Source: a virus. From it: a stretch of 24,261 nucleotides of DNA. The position numbers and the translations under genes were made by a program. Below, piece after piece: positions 3,058 through 22,840 of the stretch (position 1 is the stretch's first letter; each line of letters begins with the position of its first letter). The notes below the pieces were generated by a model. That model was not told where the DNA came from. It ran no database searches and saw nothing but the letters and a program-made list of their open reading frames with translations. The stretch is taken from the IMG/VR virus record IMGVR_UViG_3300010885_029968, positions 1-24,261 of that record. One strand, written 5' to 3'.

Positions 3058-3198
3058 ATGACTCATTTCTTATTTATTATGCTTGTCCTGACGATGGGGG
3101 CGGGCTTTTTTTTCATCTGGCGGGAATTGTACCTGCTGCGAATCGGGCGCCATGTGTTGTTCCCGCGACGAGCGGAGCGGGCGAAGAGGAAGCTGTGA
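3058..3198 (+). CDS. Tiny single-pass membrane protein (46 aa)
   Basis: Reading from ATG 3058 gives 46 residues. The N-terminal hydrophobic stretch is MTHFLFIMLVLTMGAGFFFI, followed by WRELYLLRIG and a basic tail ending RRAERAKRKL. The pattern predicts one transmembrane helix (about residues 3-21) with a positive cytoplasmic tail. The start follows the previous stop by six bases, with a weak AGAAG upstream, and the TGA overlaps the ATG of the next gene (TGATG). Unlike its neighbours it has a hydrophobic segment rich in TTT, TTC and ATT codons. Small phage membrane proteins can be holin-like, lysis-regulating or superinfection-excluding. The sequence alone does not decide. Confidence 0.6.
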   Translation: MTHFLFIMLVLTMGAGFFFIWRELYLLRIGRHVLFPRRAERAKRKL

Positions 3199-9937: not shown

Positions 9938-10489
9938 ATGGCGGTTTTGTATCGGTATAGCTTCGCTGTTGCGAATTGGGCCGCCATGACGACGACGGCT
10001 AAGTTTTCGGACATTTCTCCGGTTGATCCAGACGGGCGGACAACCTACGAATCGGGCGATAGTGGGCCGAATTACTCGCGGTTATTCGGGGCGATGTATT
10101 TCGGGTCGGTGGAGACTGTCGCGCAGATCAAGGCGGAACTGTACGCGTCTGTCCCAGGCGCGGCTCCTCTCCCCCAGCGGTCGTATACGATTTACACGTC
10201 GAATGATGGCGTAACGTGGGCTTCTGCGGTGACGGGATCGCTGACGGATGGGTGGTCCTCGTTTGTTTACAATGGATCGCTGACGGCGGCTTATATCGGT
10301 ATTTACGTTTACTCGACGAATGCGGCGCAGATTCCGACCAGTACGCGGATGGGTACGCTGATCGTGACTGATCCTCCCCTATCATTTCCGCCGGCGGATG
10401 GGTGGACGTTAAAGGACGGTTGCAATGGTACGTCGTTCGGGTTTTCGGCGATTCCGGTGACGGCATGGACGCAGAAGGAGAACTGTTAA
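9938..10489 (+). CDS. Beta-rich virion protein of unknown function
   Basis: A 183-residue protein, rich in Ser, Thr, Tyr and Gly, with strand-like segments (YTIYTSNDGVTWASAVTG, AAYIGIYVYSTNAAQIP, MGTLIVTDPP). The SNDGVTW turn is typical of small beta-sandwich domains found in fibres and cell-binding proteins. It starts at ATG 9938 with GAGGGGG a few bases upstream. Its TAA abuts the ATG of the nozzle gene, so the two are in one unit. A tail accessory or decoration role is likely by position. I do not recognise a family. Confidence 0.6.
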   Translation: MAVLYRYSFAVANWAAMTTTAKFSDISPVDPDGRTTYESGDSGPNYSRLFGAMYFGSVETVAQIKAELYASVPGAAPLPQRSYTIYTSNDGVTWASAVTGSLTDGWSSFVYNGSLTAAYIGIYVYSTNAAQIPTSTRMGTLIVTDPPLSFPPADGWTLKDGCNGTSFGFSAIPVTAWTQKENC

Positions 10490-13468: not shown

Positions 13469-13623
13469 TGCCTCTCTTTGATCCTGCGAGACCGAACGTA
13501 TCGGACTACGAGGATGATATCCGGGCGTTGCTGGCGCGTATCAACGACCTGGAATCGCGACTGAAAGCGGTGGCGGCCCAGATTGCGAATCTGCAACAGC
13601 AGGTCGATTCTCTGGCTAAATGA
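13468..13623 (+). CDS. Short coiled-coil protein (51 aa)
   Basis: ATG 13468 overlaps the nozzle stop (TAATG) and gives 51 residues: a short PLFDPARPNVSDYEDD head, then a continuous heptad pattern (IRALLARINDLESRLKAV, AAQIANLQQQVDSLAK) with Leu, Ile and Val at a and d positions. It is almost certainly a parallel coiled-coil oligomer. AAAGGG lies upstream. It could be a trimerisation or docking peptide linking nozzle and ejection proteins, which is inference. GC-rich third positions support real coding. Confidence 0.65.
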   Translation: MPLFDPARPNVSDYEDDIRALLARINDLESRLKAVAAQIANLQQQVDSLAK

Positions 13624-13646
13624 TGGGGATTGAACAGGAGATCACA

Positions 13647-14321
13647 ATGGGAATCGAAAGCATATTCGGAGGGTCGGGCGGAGACGCCAGCGGTTACAGG
13701 TCGCAGGCGGATACGAGCGCGGCGGGATTGTCCGGCATGGGCAATATCTACGGGCAGAAGGCGCAGCGCGGCGCCGACCAGGCGAACTACTATCGACCGA
13801 AGGTGCGGTCTGCGGCGGAGAATTTCGCGCGGATGCTCGAGCAGGGAACGACAGATGACGAGCGGAACCGGTTTATCGGGCAATCGACAAACGGGGTTAC
13901 AACCAATTACCTGACTGCCAGGAATTCTCTGCTGGCGGATGCGGCGCGTAACGGGGTAGATGAGGGCGCGACGGCCGCCAGTCTCGCGGGACTCGAAGGC
14001 GGGCGGGCGGGCGCAATTACTCAGGCTCAGGGCAATGCCGCGAATTATTTCGATGATCGGCGATTTCAGCGGGCGGGTCAACTGAGTGACTTGTACGGCG
14101 GGATGTACTCGCAGGGCAATAACGAGGAAAATCAGGCGCTCGGGGCGCATGGCGACATTATGAAGTATTTGTCGCAATTCTACGGGAATCAGGCGCAGGC
14201 GGCGCAGGCTTCGGATGATGCGCGGTTCGGGTCGGTGATACAGGGTCTGAGCGGGTTGGCTTCCGGGGGTTTCTCGTTGCTGGGTCAGGGCGGCAGAGTG
14301 GTCGGGAAGGCTGGTAAGTAA
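13647..14321 (+). CDS. Internal virion / ejection-type protein 1
   Basis: A 224-residue, Gly/Ala/Gln-rich, helical protein. I place the start at ATG 13647, which has AGGAGA six bases upstream. Upstream in-frame ATGs at 13620 and 13623 overlap the stop of the previous gene and lack such a site. The N terminus is glycine-rich (FGGSGGDASG), the middle is a charged helical region, and the end is hydrophobic and glycine-rich (GLSGLASGGFSLLGQGGRVV), as in small pore-forming or ejection proteins of the P22 gp7 / T7 gp14 type. Role inferred from composition and from position between nozzle and the next ejection-type gene. Confidence 0.55.
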   Translation: MGIESIFGGSGGDASGYRSQADTSAAGLSGMGNIYGQKAQRGADQANYYRPKVRSAAENFARMLEQGTTDDERNRFIGQSTNGVTTNYLTARNSLLADAARNGVDEGATAASLAGLEGGRAGAITQAQGNAANYFDDRRFQRAGQLSDLYGGMYSQGNNEENQALGAHGDIMKYLSQFYGNQAQAAQASDDARFGSVIQGLSGLASGGFSLLGQGGRVVGKAGK

Positions 14322-14324
14322 ATC

Positions 14325-15938
14325 ATGGCTAACAATGGGGCGGCGGCTTTGCTGGCATTGCTGGGCGGCGCTGTGGGCGGATACGCTCAGGGTCGCACGA
14401 TGCGGAATCAGGAGCAGACGGCGGCTGATCAGCAGGCGACACAGCGTAAAGATATGCTCGATGAGCGGGCGACACAACAGAAGAACCTGAAGGACGAGCG
14501 GAGGCGACAGGCGCTGGTGAATGCTCCGGCGTTCTGGACGGCGACGAAATACAATCCGAATAAGGTGGCGTTGCGACAGAAGTACATTCAGGAGAATGAA
14601 TTGTACGGGGCTAATATCGGCGTCCCTGATGAGATGTCGATGACGGCGGGACCGGATGGTCGGAAAATGTACGGGAAGCTGGGCGCCGACCAGACGGTCA
14701 ATTCGGATGGTGAGCGGATTTATCGCAATGGTACGGTATTGGATCCAAATGTTGATCCGGAAGATTCGCCAGAGGAAAAGGCAAAGCTCTCTCTGTTGAC
14801 TTTGCAAAAGAAAATTGCCGAAGGGAAGCTCAGAGACGATGTTGTAGACAGTGGCGATAAGCGGATGCAAGGGGTTGTCGGCTCTCCGATTTCGGTTCAG
14901 GCGGCGGTAGTAAAACAAGAGAACGAGATACGGGCTGCGGCTGGGTTACCGCCGATTGCGGTTCCGGGTGAGGCATCAGGAAAAGAAAATATCGTATCCT
15001 CTTTTTCATTGCAGGGGCCTGTCAATCCAAATAATCCTATTCCCTCGGTTTCTCGGCAACCTATTCTGGACTCAACAGGTAAGCCTACGGGCGGATTCAA
15101 TGTTTTGACTCCTGATCAATCGGGACAAACACCAGGAACCGCATCAAAGGTCTATCCGGTTTTTAATCCGCCTATTTCGCCTACCCTTGATACCAAGTAC
15201 AAGCAGGCGCAGATTAGGGAAACGGACGCGCAAGCGGCGCAGCGGGAGGCGGAAGCGAAGGCGCTACCAGCAAAGGCGGCGGCGGCATATCAAGAGGCTG
15301 TACGGAAGGGTAATATCGAGGCTCAAAAACTGATCATCGAAAACTACCGGGCTATTACCGAGAGGATCAAATTGGCGCAGGACGCAGGAGATAAGGAGGC
15401 GACGCGACAGTTACAGTTAGAGCTGGCGAAGGGGAACTGGGCGACGCAGGGGTATGTGGCAGGAATTAACGCGAAGGCGGCTGGTGATCGGCAGGGTTCG
15501 CAGGATGTTAACAGTGCGATGGCGGCATTGCAAAGGATTGTCGAGGCTGACACTAAGGATATAAAAGATATCGAGGGGTACGCCCCCTACTCGCAAGCAA
15601 CAATAACGCCGAGCAGATTTTTTTCAAATACGAACAATACCACGTATCCGATGGGGCCAGATGGGAAACCTTTGTCGGCAGGGCAGGTTGCAGGGTATGC
15701 CGCAAAACTGAAAGCGGCGCGGAAGTCTTTCAATAGCCGTACTCCCATGCGCGCTATGGCGAAATACCGGGCGGGAATGCCTCTTAGTCCGGATGAAGTG
15801 AAGGCGCTGCCAGAGTTTATGCGTAAGAACTTAGTCTCGAATTCGCCCACACCAGCACCGGGCGGTGGTGTGGGCAGTGGCAACACCAAAGGGCTAAAAG
15901 GCAATATAGACGGTGTTGGTTACGAGTTTGTAAATTAG
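14325..15938 (+). CDS. Internal virion / ejection-type protein 2
   Basis: A 537-residue protein. An N-terminal hydrophobic, glycine-rich stretch (GAAALLALLGGAVGGYAQG, residues 4-22) is followed by a highly charged coiled coil (about 27-66). A middle part has many Pro and Asn, a second Ala/Glu/Gln-rich helical stretch lies about residues 285-400, and a flexible Gly-rich tail ends the protein. This layout fits ejection proteins that cross the cell envelope with the DNA. It starts three bases after the preceding stop. From about 14950 to 15680 the codons turn AT-richer than in neighbouring genes. The stop TAG forms the first unit of a tetranucleotide repeat. Family unrecognised. Confidence 0.55.
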   Translation: MANNGAAALLALLGGAVGGYAQGRTMRNQEQTAADQQATQRKDMLDERATQQKNLKDERRRQALVNAPAFWTATKYNPNKVALRQKYIQENELYGANIGVPDEMSMTAGPDGRKMYGKLGADQTVNSDGERIYRNGTVLDPNVDPEDSPEEKAKLSLLTLQKKIAEGKLRDDVVDSGDKRMQGVVGSPISVQAAVVKQENEIRAAAGLPPIAVPGEASGKENIVSSFSLQGPVNPNNPIPSVSRQPILDSTGKPTGGFNVLTPDQSGQTPGTASKVYPVFNPPISPTLDTKYKQAQIRETDAQAAQREAEAKALPAKAAAAYQEAVRKGNIEAQKLIIENYRAITERIKLAQDAGDKEATRQLQLELAKGNWATQGYVAGINAKAAGDRQGSQDVNSAMAALQRIVEADTKDIKDIEGYAPYSQATITPSRFFSNTNNTTYPMGPDGKPLSAGQVAGYAAKLKAARKSFNSRTPMRAMAKYRAGMPLSPDEVKALPEFMRKNLVSNSPTPAPGGGVGSGNTKGLKGNIDGVGYEFVN

Positions 15939-15964: not shown

Positions 15965-15988
15965 AGACGCTTGAGGGCGTCTTTTTTT
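15965..15988 (+). terminator. Short terminator before the giant gene
   Basis: GACGC, loop TTGAGG, GCGTC, then seven T. The five-base-pair stem, extended by flanking A-T pairs, is compact but well formed. The TTG in its loop is an in-frame but implausible upstream start for the giant gene. Confidence 0.75.
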
Positions 15989-16003
15989 ATTTGGAGTTAT
16001 CCT

Positions 16004-19000
16004 ATGCCAGATGTAGATATCACACTGAAAAACGGGCGCAAAGTTCGTGTGGCGTTCGACAAGGCGCCGTCCGAGGAAACCATTGCGAAGGTGGCTCGGA
16101 TTGCGGAAGCGCGGGGTGCGGGGTCTGCGCCTTCGCGCAAAGATAATTCCAATTTGCCGGGTGGTACGCTGACTCTGGATAATTTGACGGCGCCGTCGTC
16201 TGAGACTCCTCTGGGTAATATGGCGCCGCCGATGGTCTCGGGCGCGGCGCCGCCGATGATGCCGACGATGGCGCTTCTTTCGGGCAATCCTGCGGAGATG
16301 CAGGGGGCGGGGTCTGCGGCTCCGGCTCCTCGCGCTATAACGCCACGCTTTGTCAGTCCGGTTCCGAAGTTCCGGATGCCGGTACGCGATACGAGCATGG
16401 ATGCATTCACGGCGGCGACGGGGCTGTCTCCTGAGATGCTGAATCAGATCGCCTACACTCCGGGCATGGAGGGGCTGTACGGTGGCACGACGGCTCCTGA
16501 TTTCAGCAATGAGCAGAAGGCGGCGGCGGGCGCGAATGCGGGGATGTCGGCGTTGCCCACGGCGGCGATGATGGCGACGACGATGGCGGCGAATCGGTTG
16601 GCGCAGACGGCGACGAATCCCTATATCAAGGGCCTCGGAATCCTGACAGGACTCGGTCTGGGCATGGGGGCGGCGGCGGGTGTGGATGTGGCGCAGAACG
16701 CGGCGCTACAGGGAGTACTGGGGGATACGGCGTACAAGGGGCTGGAAAGCAAGCTACAGGGCTACGAAACGAACTACCCCGTCGAATCGGCTATCGGGCG
16801 TAACCTTCCGTTTGCGGTGGTTGGTAAACCGGGCTTTTCTTTCACGCGGCAAGGACTACTACAGGCGGGAATGGGCGCGGCATCGAACGCGGGGATCGAT
16901 GTCGCTTCGCAGGTGGTGAGGAATGTGGGGGGTGGTCGTCCGGCGTTCGGACTGGATTATAACCGTCTGGGTGAGGCGGCCGGGGTTGGTGCGCTGTTTA
17001 GCGGCGGTCATACGGCTGTCGGGCAGGCGATGGAGAATGGTATCAATCGTGCGCTGACGCCATTTACGAATCGCATGGCGACGGCGCTGAACCAGAGGGC
17101 GGCGAATCGGTTCCGGGCGGCGGCGGGTGCGGATATCAGCGCGGCTGAGATGCTACCGGGGGTGGATGCGAACACGGCGCTGACGGATTATGCCGGGTAC
17201 AAACCGGGCGATACGCGCTATGACGGCGCGGGGAAACCGGTGCAGGTGGTCGAGGTGTTGCCCGACGGTCGTCTGCGGGTGCGGTCTGGAAACGGGAACA
17301 TGACTCCGGTGGTGACGCCGGATGTGTTCGAGGCTCAGACTAAGGCGGGGCGGCCGGATGCGGGACCGGATGCGCCGTACTCAAGGATCGGAATCAACAA
17401 CTGGCAGGCGTTGCGCGATTCGATGATATCGGAGTTTGGCTATACGCGAGACAAGGCGAACGCGGTGGCGGCCGAGTACGAATCGATAGCGCGGAGCTGG
17501 GCGCAGCGCAATGGGAAACCTGTCGAAGATTGGTATAAGCAACACGTTGCCGGAATCACGAACGGCGGCGAAATTATGGCGCAGGTGCAACTGGATGAGG
17601 CGAATCAGCAGTCTCTGCTGAAGGGCGGCAATCCGCTGACGGCTCAGGCGACGGACTTGAAAGGGTCGGCGACGGCGGTTCCTACGGCGGATTCTCCGGC
17701 GCGTCATGTTATTTCTGCGCTGGTGGCGCCGGATGTTTCGACGGCATTGCATGAGCTGGGGCATATCTTCAGGAAACAGGTCGGGGCGGAGAATCCCAAC
17801 GATATCGCCATGCTCCGGAAATGGGCGGGGGTTCGGCCGGGCGACGAATGGAATGTAGACCACGAAGAAAAGTTCGCGGTTTCGTTTGAGCATTGGCTCA
17901 AGACCGGTGAGGCGCCGAATGGTTCGCTTCGTCGGGTGTTCGGGAAGTTCCGGGATTGGCTGGGGTCGATTTACACACGTTTCGTGGGCGGTAAGGCGGT
18001 GGATACGCTGGGGGCGACGCCATTCAATCCTGAGGTGGTGGATATGCTGAAGCGCTACCACGCGGATATCTCGGACATGACGGGAGAAACTGCGGCGGCG
18101 GCTCCAGCGGCTCCGTCCGTCTCTCCGGGGCGGGTTCGGGGGAATAATGCCGCGCAGACTCAGGCGCAGACTCAGGCGGCTCCGTCTACGGTTCTTCGTC
18201 CGGTGATGCAGGATGGAAAACTTGTCGGTAATGAGGCGGGGCAGACGGCGAATATCGGGTCTGGGTTGATCGTCGATATTGCGAATGAGGGCGGGACGGC
18301 GAGGAAGTACCGGATTTCTACGTCCGGTCTGATCGAGGGTCGGACGGACGGGGCGCGAACGGCGACGGGCGTCGAGATTCGGGCGGGTGGCGGACCGCGG
18401 GCGCGATTGTCGGGATATGTGGTGGAGACGCCACAGGGTCTGCACTTCGTGGAATCTCTGGGTGATGGCGCGGCGGCGCAACCATCGGGTCAGACGATTC
18501 TTCCGGGGGCGACGACGACGACGGAGGCTCTGGCTCCTCTGGTACGGACTCCAGTGAATGCGGAGAATATCAAGAGCGGGTCGGCGGCCGAGGTTTCTTT
18601 GCCGGGGTCAAACGAAAAAATCGGGGTGCGGTATGCAATCGTTGAACTGGGCGATTTGATCCCCTCTCATACCGATACATTCGCTCCTAATCCGTTGTAC
18701 GATGCCGAGATGCAACCACGCGACCGGACGCGCATGGCAAGTTCCGACCAGGTCAACGATATCGTCGGAAAATTCAATCCGGCGCTGTTGATGGATTCCC
18801 CCTCGACGGCGGAAGGGGCGCCGATTGTCGGTCCCGATTTGCAGGTGGAATCGGGTAACGGGCGAACGCTGGCAATACGAAAGGTTTACGCAGAAGGCGG
18901 CGCCAGAGCGGACGCATACCGGACGGCGGCCACGGAGAAGGCGGCGGCGCTGGGAGTTAATCCAGACGATATCGCTGGCATGAAGAATCCGGTGCTGGTG

Positions 19001-22000
19001 CGGGTGCGGGAGACGGAAACGACGGACCGGGCGGGGCTGGCGGAACGGATGGGTAAATCCCCTATCGCGGCGCTGTCTCCTATCGAACAGGCGGCGGCGG
19101 ATGCGCGGGTGATCCAGGGTAATGGCTTGCTGTCGCGGTTCGTCCCTACTGAATCCGGCCGCATTTACTCTCCGGCGAATCTGCCGTTTATCCGGGAGTT
19201 CATGGGCAAGATTCCGGCGAACGAGCGCACGACGCTGATGCGGGCGGATGGGACGCTGTCGGATGCGGGAGAGGCGCGTCTGCGGGCGGCGATATTGTCT
19301 GCGGCATACGATGATCCGGCGTTCATCGAGCGCATGACGGATTCCGATCAATTGCGGAATCTGCGTAAGGCGATCATCGAGACGGCGCCGAAGTTGGCGC
19401 TGATCCGCGAGGGTATCAGCAAGGGTCGGCTGCACGATGTGGATATCTCGTCGGATATCTCGGCGGCGGTAGACCGTGCGCTGGCGTTGTCGAAGCAGGA
19501 GGGTTCGCTTCGGGACAATATCGCGCAGGATTTGGCGCAGCAGTCGCTGGATGGCGGCCTGTCGGATGAGGCGCGGGCTATTCTGGCTATTCTGGGCGAT
19601 GCAAATCGGGGCGGGGCGCGTCTGCGGGAACTGGTGGCGGCGTATTCGGACATGGTGGCGAGGGCGGGGAATCCGGCGCAGGAATCGATGGGCGGGAAGT
19701 CGTCGCCGCCGGACAAGATGGAATTGGTGCGGAAGGCGATATCGTCCGCGATGGGCGAAGAGGAACCGGCGCAGACCGGACCGGATTTGTTCGGGGATAT
19801 GGCGGCTCCAGCGGCTCCAGCGGCGAAAGAAGCTCCAGCGGCTTCTGCGTCTCCAGCGGCTCCTGTGGCTCCAGCGGCGAAGGAGGCGCCCACGACGGCG
19901 GCTCTGGCAATGGAGATGGTACAGCGGCATGGGGTGAAACCTACCGAGCAGAATCTGGCGCTGGCGGAAAACGCGGTGAAGATGGCGCAACAGCGGGGTA
20001 AGGACGGGTTGGACCAGGTCGATCAGTACGTGCTGACCAGTTATGATGCGGCGTCTGGGAATGCGACGATCACTTCGCCCAGAGCGGATAAGCAGGGAAA
20101 CTTTGCGTCTTATGAGGTCAACGTTCGGACGGGCGCGTCGTCTGATCCTGACTCGCTGTACCGGTTGAACGGGAGTACAGAGCAGGGGCAGAAATTTGAC
20201 GGAATCAATGTGTCGCTGGCGAAGGCGGGAATCAACGAGACGGTCGCCAGTAAGCATACGATGATAGCGCGAGAGCTGGCGCGTCGTGCGGGTTACGCTG
20301 TACCGGAAATGGGCAATGATGTCCTGAAGGCGGACACGCTATTTCAGAATCAGCAAGCAAGGCAGGAATCTTACTATAAAGAGGCTATGCGTCTGGATCA
20401 GATCGGCTATACGGACTCTTATGGGTATAAGCGAGGTCCGACTTGGACAAAAACTGACGTTTTGGACATGATTGACGCTAAGACGGGGAAACTTCGTCCG
20501 TTTACAGCACTGATCGGAGACAGAACTAAGATTGGTTATTATGAACCGATTGGCGGGAAAAATTCTCCGCTTTACAATAAGGTTCTCCTGTACGGCGGTC
20601 CCGGCTATGGCATGAAGCGAAATTGGACAGATCCCAATGACAACACTCTGTCAAGGGCAATATGGGCTGTGAACGCGGGACGAGCGACCAGAATCCACAA
20701 TTCAATGGCCGGACATAATGAGGTAAACGCACTGATTGTGGTAGGGTCACCAGAACAGGCGACCAGCAATCAAGAGTTTTACCGTGTATACGGTATGGAG
20801 CTGGATATTGCGCTCAAGTATGGATTGAATGGCGTAAGACCAAAAATATTAGAGGTTAACAAAGCAGTAAAAAAGATAGCCGAGGGGTTAGGTATAACTA
20901 AAATTGATACTTGGGATGATTACGTCAAATCTGCGCCATCTCTGTCATTTGAAGACAGATCCGCATTTATAAAGGCTCTGGGAGCGCCTACATTATCCAA
21001 AACGCTAAATATCCCATCCATACATCAAGTCTTAGATGGTTTTATTGATCATCATGACGCTAAAGTCGGAGACATTGTAGCTGCTGGAGTTTTGCGAAAA
21101 TTCGGACTTCCGCCAACTGAAACCAGAAAACAGACCTACGTTCCCATTCCGAATCTGAACGTTCATGTTTCCTATCCTTATGCTCTGCCAGGAGTATTAA
21201 CAGGGAGCGTCAATAAAGGGGTTTCAGCGCACGATGTTTTTTCCAGATGGCTGATCAATGCTGTAGCCAAGGCGAATCAGAGATCAGTGGAAATGATACA
21301 TCCGACGACGGGGCCATTGACTCCTGCGGAAGAGCAAAGGATAATACAATCGTTATTCCAGGGAGGTGAAAATTATGACGGACGAAGAAATGGATCAACT
21401 GGTAAAGACGGCTTTTCAGGAAGCGAAGGAGTTCGACCAGAGAATGAACCAGGACAAGAAACTGGTGGAGGATTTCTACGGACCGGGATCCTACCCGCAG
21501 TGGCAGGAAGATATCAAGGCAATGAAGTTACCGCCAAGCGAGGACGGCAAATTGCCGGAGGGCGCGATCAAGGCGCAGGGGCTGGGGGGTTAGATACCAG
21601 CAATCTATTCCAGACGGTTCAAGGCGCTCCGAATGGGGCGCCTTCTCGTTTTAAACGAGCGACGGATTTGACGGTGGATGTGGTGACGCGTGCGCCCAGA
21701 GCGTTGCAGGGGTCGGCGGATATCTCGGCTCCGGGGCGTCAGGGAATCATTCTGACAATTGCTCATCCGGGGCTGGCGACGAAGGCGTTCAAGGAACAGA
21801 TTCGGAACTTCAGGGATGTGAACTACGACCAGTGGGCGATGGATATGGACCAACGTCCAAACGCGCATCTGTACGACGAGTATTTGAAACTTTCGTACAA
21901 TCAGGAGCATGGCGAAGAAACGTTCTCGTCCAAGCTGGTCGAGCGCTTACCCTGGGTCAAGGGTTCTGAACAGGCGTATATTACCTATCTCGACCAGATT

Positions 22001-22840
22001 CGGGCGGATGTGTTCGACAAGTGGGCGGTGGCGCTGGGCGTTCCAGAAGGCGGGATGCCGGACGAGAAACAAGCGAAGTCTCTGAAGAATGCGGGGCGTT
22101 TTATTATGGACGCTTCCGGTAAAGGCGAGCTTCCAGCGGCAATTGAGGGCAGCAAGAAATTGTTGACGCTGGCGTTCTATTCCCCCAGTTTCGCGGCGTC
22201 CAGAATAGCTCTTCTGAATCCAATGCGGTATGCGAAGCTGTGGGCGGAGGATCCTGCGGCGGCGAAGCTGGTGACGGCGGCGATGGGCAAATTTGTCGGG
22301 GCGACGGCGGGAACGCTGGCGCTGGCTCAGGCGGCCGGTTTTCAGGTGGACACAGACTCCGAATCGCCCGACTTCCTGAAAATCAAAACGGCGGACGGGA
22401 AGTTCCGCTACGATATCTCTGGCGGCCTGTCTCCTTACCTGCGGCTGGCGTTTCGATTGGTGCGGGCGACGTATGATCGGGCGCAGGGCAATCTGCCGGA
22501 ACGGGGCAAGGATGCGCTGTCTATCCTGGGGAGTTTCGTCAAGGGGAAACTGTCTCCGGGGGCGTCTTTGCCGGTGGAGTTCTACACGGGCAAAACGGGC
22601 GGGGGGAAAGATTTTGATGTGACAAATGCGGTACTCTCGCGGGCGCTGCCGCTACCTTTCTCCGGGATGTACGAGGCTCTGTCGGGTGAGGGGCTGATGG
22701 GCGGGTTGCAACAGTTACCGGATGTCGTAGGAATTGGAACCAGTTATCGGCCGGACGGTGGCGGAGGGAGGTCTGGCAAGGGTGGCGGGTTGCCATCGCT
22801 CCCGAAACTGCCGGAGCTGCCACAATTACCGAAGTTATAG
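16004..22840 (+). CDS. Giant polyvalent protein: zincin, DdrB-like ParB and polyvalent domains
   Basis: A 2278-residue protein starting at ATG 16004, with GGAG seven bases upstream. In order: a small N-terminal domain (DVDITLKNGRKVRVAF), a Pro/Ala-rich linker, a hydrophobic glycine-rich stretch near residues 178-235, and a zinc-protease motif HELGH (583-587) with acidic HEEKFAVSFE from 620 as probable third-ligand region. Next is a DdrB-like ParB domain (about 870-1200; DLIPSHTDTF, APIVGPD, SGNGRTLA from 950), then Ala/Pro linkers (near 1266-1300) and an AT-rich-encoded segment (about 1443-1790) resembling large polyvalent-protein domains. An odd Gly-rich linker (1787-1865) comes from an overlapped frame, and a C-terminal module from about 1880 opens with SADISAPGRQG. 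Such proteins are thought to be injected with phage DNA and counter host defences. Virion packing is inferred from position. Confidence 0.8.
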   Translation: MPDVDITLKNGRKVRVAFDKAPSEETIAKVARIAEARGAGSAPSRKDNSNLPGGTLTLDNLTAPSSETPLGNMAPPMVSGAAPPMMPTMALLSGNPAEMQGAGSAAPAPRAITPRFVSPVPKFRMPVRDTSMDAFTAATGLSPEMLNQIAYTPGMEGLYGGTTAPDFSNEQKAAAGANAGMSALPTAAMMATTMAANRLAQTATNPYIKGLGILTGLGLGMGAAAGVDVAQNAALQGVLGDTAYKGLESKLQGYETNYPVESAIGRNLPFAVVGKPGFSFTRQGLLQAGMGAASNAGIDVASQVVRNVGGGRPAFGLDYNRLGEAAGVGALFSGGHTAVGQAMENGINRALTPFTNRMATALNQRAANRFRAAAGADISAAEMLPGVDANTALTDYAGYKPGDTRYDGAGKPVQVVEVLPDGRLRVRSGNGNMTPVVTPDVFEAQTKAGRPDAGPDAPYSRIGINNWQALRDSMISEFGYTRDKANAVAAEYESIARSWAQRNGKPVEDWYKQHVAGITNGGEIMAQVQLDEANQQSLLKGGNPLTAQATDLKGSATAVPTADSPARHVISALVAPDVSTALHELGHIFRKQVGAENPNDIAMLRKWAGVRPGDEWNVDHEEKFAVSFEHWLKTGEAPNGSLRRVFGKFRDWLGSIYTRFVGGKAVDTLGATPFNPEVVDMLKRYHADISDMTGETAAAAPAAPSVSPGRVRGNNAAQTQAQTQAAPSTVLRPVMQDGKLVGNEAGQTANIGSGLIVDIANEGGTARKYRISTSGLIEGRTDGARTATGVEIRAGGGPRARLSGYVVETPQGLHFVESLGDGAAAQPSGQTILPGATTTTEALAPLVRTPVNAENIKSGSAAEVSLPGSNEKIGVRYAIVELGDLIPSHTDTFAPNPLYDAEMQPRDRTRMASSDQVNDIVGKFNPALLMDSPSTAEGAPIVGPDLQVESGNGRTLAIRKVYAEGGARADAYRTAATEKAAALGVNPDDIAGMKNPVLVRVRETETTDRAGLAERMGKSPIAALSPIEQAAADARVIQGNGLLSRFVPTESGRIYSPANLPFIREFMGKIPANERTTLMRADGTLSDAGEARLRAAILSAAYDDPAFIERMTDSDQLRNLRKAIIETAPKLALIREGISKGRLHDVDISSDISAAVDRALALSKQEGSLRDNIAQDLAQQSLDGGLSDEARAILAILGDANRGGARLRELVAAYSDMVARAGNPAQESMGGKSSPPDKMELVRKAISSAMGEEEPAQTGPDLFGDMAAPAAPAAKEAPAASASPAAPVAPAAKEAPTTAALAMEMVQRHGVKPTEQNLALAENAVKMAQQRGKDGLDQVDQYVLTSYDAASGNATITSPRADKQGNFASYEVNVRTGASSDPDSLYRLNGSTEQGQKFDGINVSLAKAGINETVASKHTMIARELARRAGYAVPEMGNDVLKADTLFQNQQARQESYYKEAMRLDQIGYTDSYGYKRGPTWTKTDVLDMIDAKTGKLRPFTALIGDRTKIGYYEPIGGKNSPLYNKVLLYGGPGYGMKRNWTDPNDNTLSRAIWAVNAGRATRIHNSMAGHNEVNALIVVGSPEQATSNQEFYRVYGMELDIALKYGLNGVRPKILEVNKAVKKIAEGLGITKIDTWDDYVKSAPSLSFEDRSAFIKALGAPTLSKTLNIPSIHQVLDGFIDHHDAKVGDIVAAGVLRKFGLPPTETRKQTYVPIPNLNVHVSYPYALPGVLTGSVNKGVSAHDVFSRWLINAVAKANQRSVEMIHPTTGPLTPAEEQRIIQSLFQGGENYDGRRNGSTGKDGFSGSEGVRPENEPGQETGGGFLRTGILPAVAGRYQGNEVTAKRGRQIAGGRDQGAGAGGLDTSNLFQTVQGAPNGAPSRFKRATDLTVDVVTRAPRALQGSADISAPGRQGIILTIAHPGLATKAFKEQIRNFRDVNYDQWAMDMDQRPNAHLYDEYLKLSYNQEHGEETFSSKLVERLPWVKGSEQAYITYLDQIRADVFDKWAVALGVPEGGMPDEKQAKSLKNAGRFIMDASGKGELPAAIEGSKKLLTLAFYSPSFAASRIALLNPMRYAKLWAEDPAAAKLVTAAMGKFVGATAGTLALAQAAGFQVDTDSESPDFLKIKTADGKFRYDISGGLSPYLRLAFRLVRATYDRAQGNLPERGKDALSILGSFVKGKLSPGASLPVEFYTGKTGGGKDFDVTNAVLSRALPLPFSGMYEALSGEGLMGGLQQLPDVVGIGTSYRPDGGGGRSGKGGGLPSLPKLPELPQLPKL
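21361..21369 (+). promoter_or_regulatory. Strong internal ribosome binding site
   Basis: GGGAGGTGA, close to the ideal anti-SD complement, lies five bases before ATG 21375 and inside the giant gene. It supports independent translation of the overlapping 72-residue ORF. Confidence 0.65.
21375..21593 (+). CDS. Overlapping 72-aa acidic protein inside the giant gene
   Basis: Reading +1 relative to the giant ORF gives 72 residues: MTDEEMDQLVKTAFQEAKEF, then a charged helix with NQDKKLVEDFYG, then YPQWQEDIKAMKLPPSEDGK and the end KAQGLGG. It has a compact, natural-looking composition. Third codon positions in this frame are mostly G or C, as in the rest of the phage, whereas the giant frame here uses many A- or T-ending codons and yields a Gly/Arg-rich, featureless linker. 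GGGAGGTGA precedes its ATG by five bases. The function is unknown. It may act with the giant protein or be the remnant of a gene once standing between two separate genes. Confidence 0.65.
   Translation: MTDEEMDQLVKTAFQEAKEFDQRMNQDKKLVEDFYGPGSYPQWQEDIKAMKLPPSEDGKLPEGAIKAQGLGG
21621..21654 (+). terminator. Terminator-like hairpin inside the giant gene
   Basis: AAGGCGCTCC pairs with GGGGCGCCTT over ten base pairs (one G-T) with loop GAAT, followed by CTCGTTTT. It lies 28 bases after the stop of the overlapping 72-aa ORF. A second inverted repeat, CTCGTTTTAAACGAG, follows directly (21645-21659). The T-run is short and interrupted, and the same bases encode a GAPNGAP linker, so it may be incidental. 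Confidence 0.35.

Follow-up and report, generated by a model that had tools for sequence, protein, structure and literature searches.

The pid moron of phage P22, a late-region ORFan of 86 aa (PMC3573128), and the embedded Rz/Rz1 gene pair of phage lambda (PMC5295617) are the closest described counterparts of the locus analysed here, a 72-aa ORF lying out of frame within a giant polyvalent ORF. The pid gene occupies a site between genes and is transcribed in the direction opposite to its neighbours, whereas the 72-aa ORF lies inside another ORF, on the same strand, and leaves that ORF unbroken; and whereas pid has been demonstrated by its protein and phenotype, the 72-aa gene is proposed here from sequence alone. 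In comparisons of an operon between related phages, a moron stands out as a gene that appears inserted (PMC2629481). Since the 72-aa gene sits inside an ORF and not between genes, we call it only ‘moron-like’, possibly a self-contained unit of that type; the moron feature of an own promoter and intrinsic terminator is suggested by rare consensus matches at the right places. With Rz/Rz1 the locus shares a complete small gene placed out of frame in a larger gene, and flexible linkers that tolerate the overlap. However, Rz and Rz1 act in one complex, whereas here the two functions look unrelated, the outer ORF specifying a 2289-aa polyvalent protein, and the 72-aa gene, unlike Rz/Rz1, seems to carry its own transcription signals. 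Polyvalent phage proteins that carry DdrB-ParB and LPD domains have been described (PMC5512222), and the giant ORF likewise combines a ddrB-ParB domain with a peptidase-like motif; that description makes no mention of an overlapping gene, a small gene, a frameshift or a terminator. Searches of the open-access literature turned up no account of a gene with its own promoter and terminator lying within a giant phage ORF. Because gene callers discard small ORFs inside long ones, such genes are missed.

The window, by which we mean the whole stretch of DNA analysed, and the features of the locus are as follows.

Window: 24,261 nt from an uncultured bacterial virus, IMG/VR virus record IMGVR_UViG_3300010885_029968, positions 1 to 24,261
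15971..22840, plus strand: giant polyvalent ORF, 2289 codons from TTG 15971, the window's longest gene
20250..21374 (boundaries approximate), plus strand: low-GC tract within the giant ORF; coding is in the giant frame, with foreign codon usage
21317..21345, plus strand: sigma-70-like promoter TTGACT-17-GATAAT, about 30 nt before ATG 21375
21361..21369, plus strand: Shine-Dalgarno sequence GGGAGGTGA, five bases before ATG 21375
21375..21593, plus strand: nested 72-aa ORF, +1 to the giant frame, from ATG 21375 to TAG 21591-21593
21584..21589, plus strand: GGGGGG run where the coding-like frame changes back, a possible indel or -1 slippage site
21621..21644, plus strand: terminator-like hairpin AAGGCGCTCC-GAAT-GGGGCGCCTT then CTCGTTTT, -17.8 kcal/mol
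21662..22756, plus strand: giant C-terminal module, homologous to the C-terminal module of relatives' giant ORFs

The evidence from composition and signals leads us to think it fairly probable that the 72-aa ORF encodes a protein as a genuine gene, placed out of frame within the giant ORF, and that both frames are in use. The window also holds terminase, portal and major head genes. The giant ORF, which probably starts at ATG 16004 behind a GGAG site, is a polyvalent-protein ORF in being very long and multidomain with a ddrB-ParB domain (residues 881-1013, E 3.7e-36), and it also contains a HELGH peptidase-like motif. The small ORF lies directly 3' of the low-GC tract (GC 0.40-0.53, compared with about 0.60), which has no detectable homologue and looks like a recently acquired module; its structure prediction was unusable (pLDDT 36), and one match to it was set aside as chance, being short and lying in an apparent DNA polymerase III alpha subunit.

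Start, Shine-Dalgarno sequence and stop of the 72-aa ORF all lie inside another ORF in a different frame, the arrangement that defines a nested gene. The coordinates and the pI of 4.5 bear out the earlier note, which had drawn attention to a Shine-Dalgarno sequence five bases upstream of ATG 21375 and to an acidic 72-residue product in the +1 frame. Among the 457 ATGs of the window, ATG 21375 ranks first by Shine-Dalgarno match. The 8.1-kDa product is predicted to be mainly helical (AlphaFold, pLDDT 76), with a C-terminal tail predicted to be disordered and linker-like.

Codon composition points to the inner frame as the coding-like one. Across 21371-21610 the GC content by codon position is 0.68/0.57/0.33 in the giant frame and thus 0.57/0.33/0.68 in the +1 frame, the pattern of the phage's other genes, so that the GC-rich third positions do belong to the +1 frame, as had been claimed; likewise, the giant frame here does read as a Gly/Arg/Glu-rich linker (28% Gly and 11% Arg). 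We trained a codon log-likelihood model on the other genes of the window. Over the small ORF it gives +20.3 for the 72-aa frame, -21.9 for the giant frame and -46.6 for the third, and in 438 real-gene windows the in-frame median is +20.2, whereas out of frame the values hardly ever rise above zero (maxima of -9.9 at +1 and +4.0 at +2). The giant frame across the small ORF therefore scores like a gene read out of frame. The maximum-likelihood +1 segment, 21362-21581, shows that the change of frame fits the ends of the 72-aa ORF. Part of the +20 score comes from amino-acid composition, since the signal is weaker when only synonymous choice is scored (+2.9 for the 72-aa frame, against a native 5th percentile of +2.6 and -22.8 for the giant frame). 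Open-frame length alone is unremarkable, because the giant ORF holds further nested ATG-initiated frames of 60 codons or more, every one with a strongly negative score. No second frame-swapped island of 60 codons or longer exists in the window or in about 100 fetched contigs, whose giant ORFs reach 5542 codons.

The elements flanking the small gene suggest that it could be expressed alone. The promoter-like sequence is the sole 10/12 match on both strands of the window, and a match within 100 nt upstream would arise by chance with P about 0.009 in this AT-rich stretch. The 10-bp hairpin, which starts 28 nt past the 72-aa stop, is one of two strong terminator-like hairpins in the window, with about 0.25 comparable hairpins followed by a T-rich tail expected per 24 kb strand; for both elements the thresholds were chosen after the site had been seen. 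The hairpin falls on a GAP-N-GAP coding repeat built of palindromic GGCGCC, and for that reason we give it moderate weight as evidence; its T tail, too, is imperfect. We scanned 12,822 ATG-initiated ORFs, 40-200 codons long, from the window and related contigs (3.03 Mb of strands). A comparable Shine-Dalgarno sequence was present in 186, of which 5 also had the promoter and 12 also the terminator; a single one, the 72-aa ORF, had all three. The earlier note had proposed that a true gene-within-gene would couple production of the small protein to that of the giant one, and this is not what promoter-like and terminator-like elements on either side of the small gene appear to indicate.

Searches for relatives of the small protein returned nothing: tblastn against 50,697 phage records, peptide-pattern scans of IMG/VR and GTDB genomes, comparison with PHROGs, NCBIfam, PADLOC and Pfam, and a fold search all found no homologue. 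These empty protein searches count against the claim that the gene is real, within the bounds of methods that need close similarity. A match to P450 BM3 (E 0.003 over 39 helical residues) was rejected as chance, the hits being one protein in many mutant entries. By analogy with other small acidic phage proteins, one might guess that the product binds a host or phage protein, and it may have a role in manipulating such proteins.

The outer frame has relatives at its 3' end. From phages reached via terminase, we took four C-terminal modules, one from MW202497 and one from each of three IMG/VR relatives, in ORFs of 1583, 3313, about 4467 and 5542 codons. A profile built on these alone matches the window's giant protein at residues 1930-2197 (sequence E 1.4e-11 in a four-sequence search). 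In the three IMG/VR relatives (L086, 2844-12782, 3313 codons; L088, 1787-18412, 5542 codons; L091/L092, about 4467 codons) the module ends the giant ORF, and these three ORFs share little beyond it. The module may resemble LPD38; the LPD38 model (PF18857) matched nothing in the window or the relatives, and the control was likewise silent. The relatives' giants lack an island of this kind and align to the window's giant at the C-terminal module alone, and none of the contigs found spans the nested locus. No tyrosine integrase occurs in 19 records of relatives, and we therefore do not assume lysogenic expression as in classic morons. The module being already C-terminal in the relatives' giants, and having no credible start codon of its own in the window, the fusion of two neighbouring genes that the earlier note had offered as one explanation does not serve as the main account.

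That the coding-like frame runs in the giant frame, shifts to +1 from about 21362 and returns at 21581-21590 invites readings in which a frameshift stands in place of nesting. One, which we regard as unlikely, holds that the 72-aa frame is the start of a separate 488-aa gene running from ATG 21375 into the C-terminal module, through either an indel or programmed -1 slippage at the GGGGGGT heptamer (21584-21590), the giant ORF being then a secondary fusion, or the module being made twice. The return of the frame falls exactly at the run of six Gs (the 24 kb contain four runs of this kind), and a single additional G would join the two frames. The predicted disorder of the 72-aa protein's tail would suit a linker, and the Shine-Dalgarno sequence and ATG fit a real gene start. 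Against this reading, the module sits within the giant ORF in relatives, the hairpin would fall inside the gene, and in a sequence with the additional G about 280 nt of overlap would precede the stop of the upstream gene. As for an indel, the window shows none over 4.2-4.7 kb of comparison with two same-species contigs, which end before the giant ORF. As for slippage, the strong hairpin begins about 31 nt downstream of the slippery run, which is far for a frameshift stimulator.

The coding signal might also be a by-product of the linker, a possibility we rate as quite unlikely: a genuine Gly/Arg/Glu-rich linker with A-ending codons, derived from a low-GC donor, would yield by chance an open, hydrophilic, coding-like +1 frame with the SD-like GGAGGT. 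The linker adjoins the low-GC tract with its similarly foreign codons, the Gly-Gly codons GGA GGT by themselves create an SD-like sequence, and the linker's own codon usage often leaves the +1 frame open, with a median score of about +13. Because such a linker can mimic a coding +1 frame, we tested it as a null. When the giant protein was kept and its codons were redrawn with the usage of the low-GC tract, the observed score was reached in 5e-5 of cases and never with an open frame; when the linker codons were permuted, the +1 frame was open and equally coding-like in under 5e-5. Permutation among synonyms only, with the linker's codon counts kept, gave the observed score and openness in 2%. 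Over the whole giant ORF, 0/400 synonymous re-draws held an ATG-initiated nested ORF of at least 60 codons scoring at least 15 (maximum 13.9). The inner frame carries coding signal beyond the demands of the outer protein, the synonymous-only part of that signal being weaker; the promoter, the ATG spacing and the terminator are likewise unaccounted for by a chance origin.

A pair of compensating single-base frameshifts within a single ancestral giant frame could have placed 72 residues out of frame with no separate gene. This would suit the 0/+1/0 frame order with switches at about 21362 and at the G run, and the relatives with one continuous giant, but it is unlikely, for it leaves unexplained the window's best Shine-Dalgarno sequence exactly at a switch and a stop no more than two codons from the second one, and the relatives' sequence 5' of the module is unlike the 72-aa frame. 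Promoter, hairpin and stop go unexplained by either frameshift account.

The nested gene thus remains our preferred reading, and the reciprocal test bears on its other half, the use of the giant frame: only 0.5% of synonymous re-draws of the 72-aa gene leave the giant frame open across it. Both frames are open beyond chance. This rarity suggests that the giant frame is probably kept open, and, taken with the position of the module at the end of the relatives' giants, it argues that the giant ORF is probably more than an accident and that its frame looks maintained. What the earlier note had described, a real small +1 gene that the giant frame crosses as a linker, is supported by codon scores, Shine-Dalgarno sequence and re-draw nulls; of its phrase ‘passive read-through’, the read-through as a linker stands, whereas ‘passive’ sits poorly with so rarely open a frame.

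If the nested gene is real, we envisage that host RNA polymerase would start at the gene's own sigma-70-type promoter and produce a short mRNA of about 300 nt, ending at the intrinsic terminator, and that the strong ribosome-binding site on this mRNA would direct synthesis of the 8-kDa acidic helical protein independently of the giant one. Transcription of the giant ORF would pass through, with giant-frame ribosomes reading this stretch as a flexible linker rich in Gly. Those ribosomes would also keep the terminator hairpin from forming, so that the C-terminal module would still be made. Such masking of a hairpin rests on transcription-translation coupling. Expression, and a promoter and terminator that work, are what we infer from the arrangement of these signals.

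The two frames may also differ in age. In de novo overprinted viral genes, where likewise two frames share one stretch of DNA, codon usage is a clue to age, ancestral frames tending to match genome codon usage better than overprinted ones (PMC3744397). Here the usual nested case appears reversed, codon usage marking the small inner frame as native and the large outer frame as overprinted. The codon-usage test is suggestive of a small frame older than the giant one, and the direction of overprinting is only suggestive because a linker can be reshaped freely. We tentatively propose that a unit of promoter, ribosome-binding site, 72-aa gene and terminator was captured in the giant polyvalent gene and adopted out of frame as an inter-module linker, the outer gene being overprinted on an older inner one whose terminator is silenced by ribosomes translating the giant frame. 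The flanks of this putatively acquired cassette show only 10-nt exact repeats, near chance. If correct, the proposal would mean that phage mega-genes can house independent small genes in their loose linkers while the frame of the mega-gene stays intact, would provide an example of an outer frame younger than the inner one, and would predict an interplay of transcription and translation in which giant-frame ribosomes override an inner terminator.

Elsewhere in the window, long minus-strand open frames at 13506-14918 (470 codons) and 18608-20257 (549 codons) lie opposite coding regions and are both probably GC-driven shadows. The product of 9938-10489 has a weak match, under the Pfam cut-off, to an F5/8 type C (discoidin-like) domain and may be a carbohydrate-binding virion protein. 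At 1229-1345 the terminase ORF begins ~40 codons ahead of its similarity to most relatives, and its true start may lie further in. Between the terminase and portal genes, at 3081-3105, a strong terminator-like hairpin is followed by TTTTTTTT.
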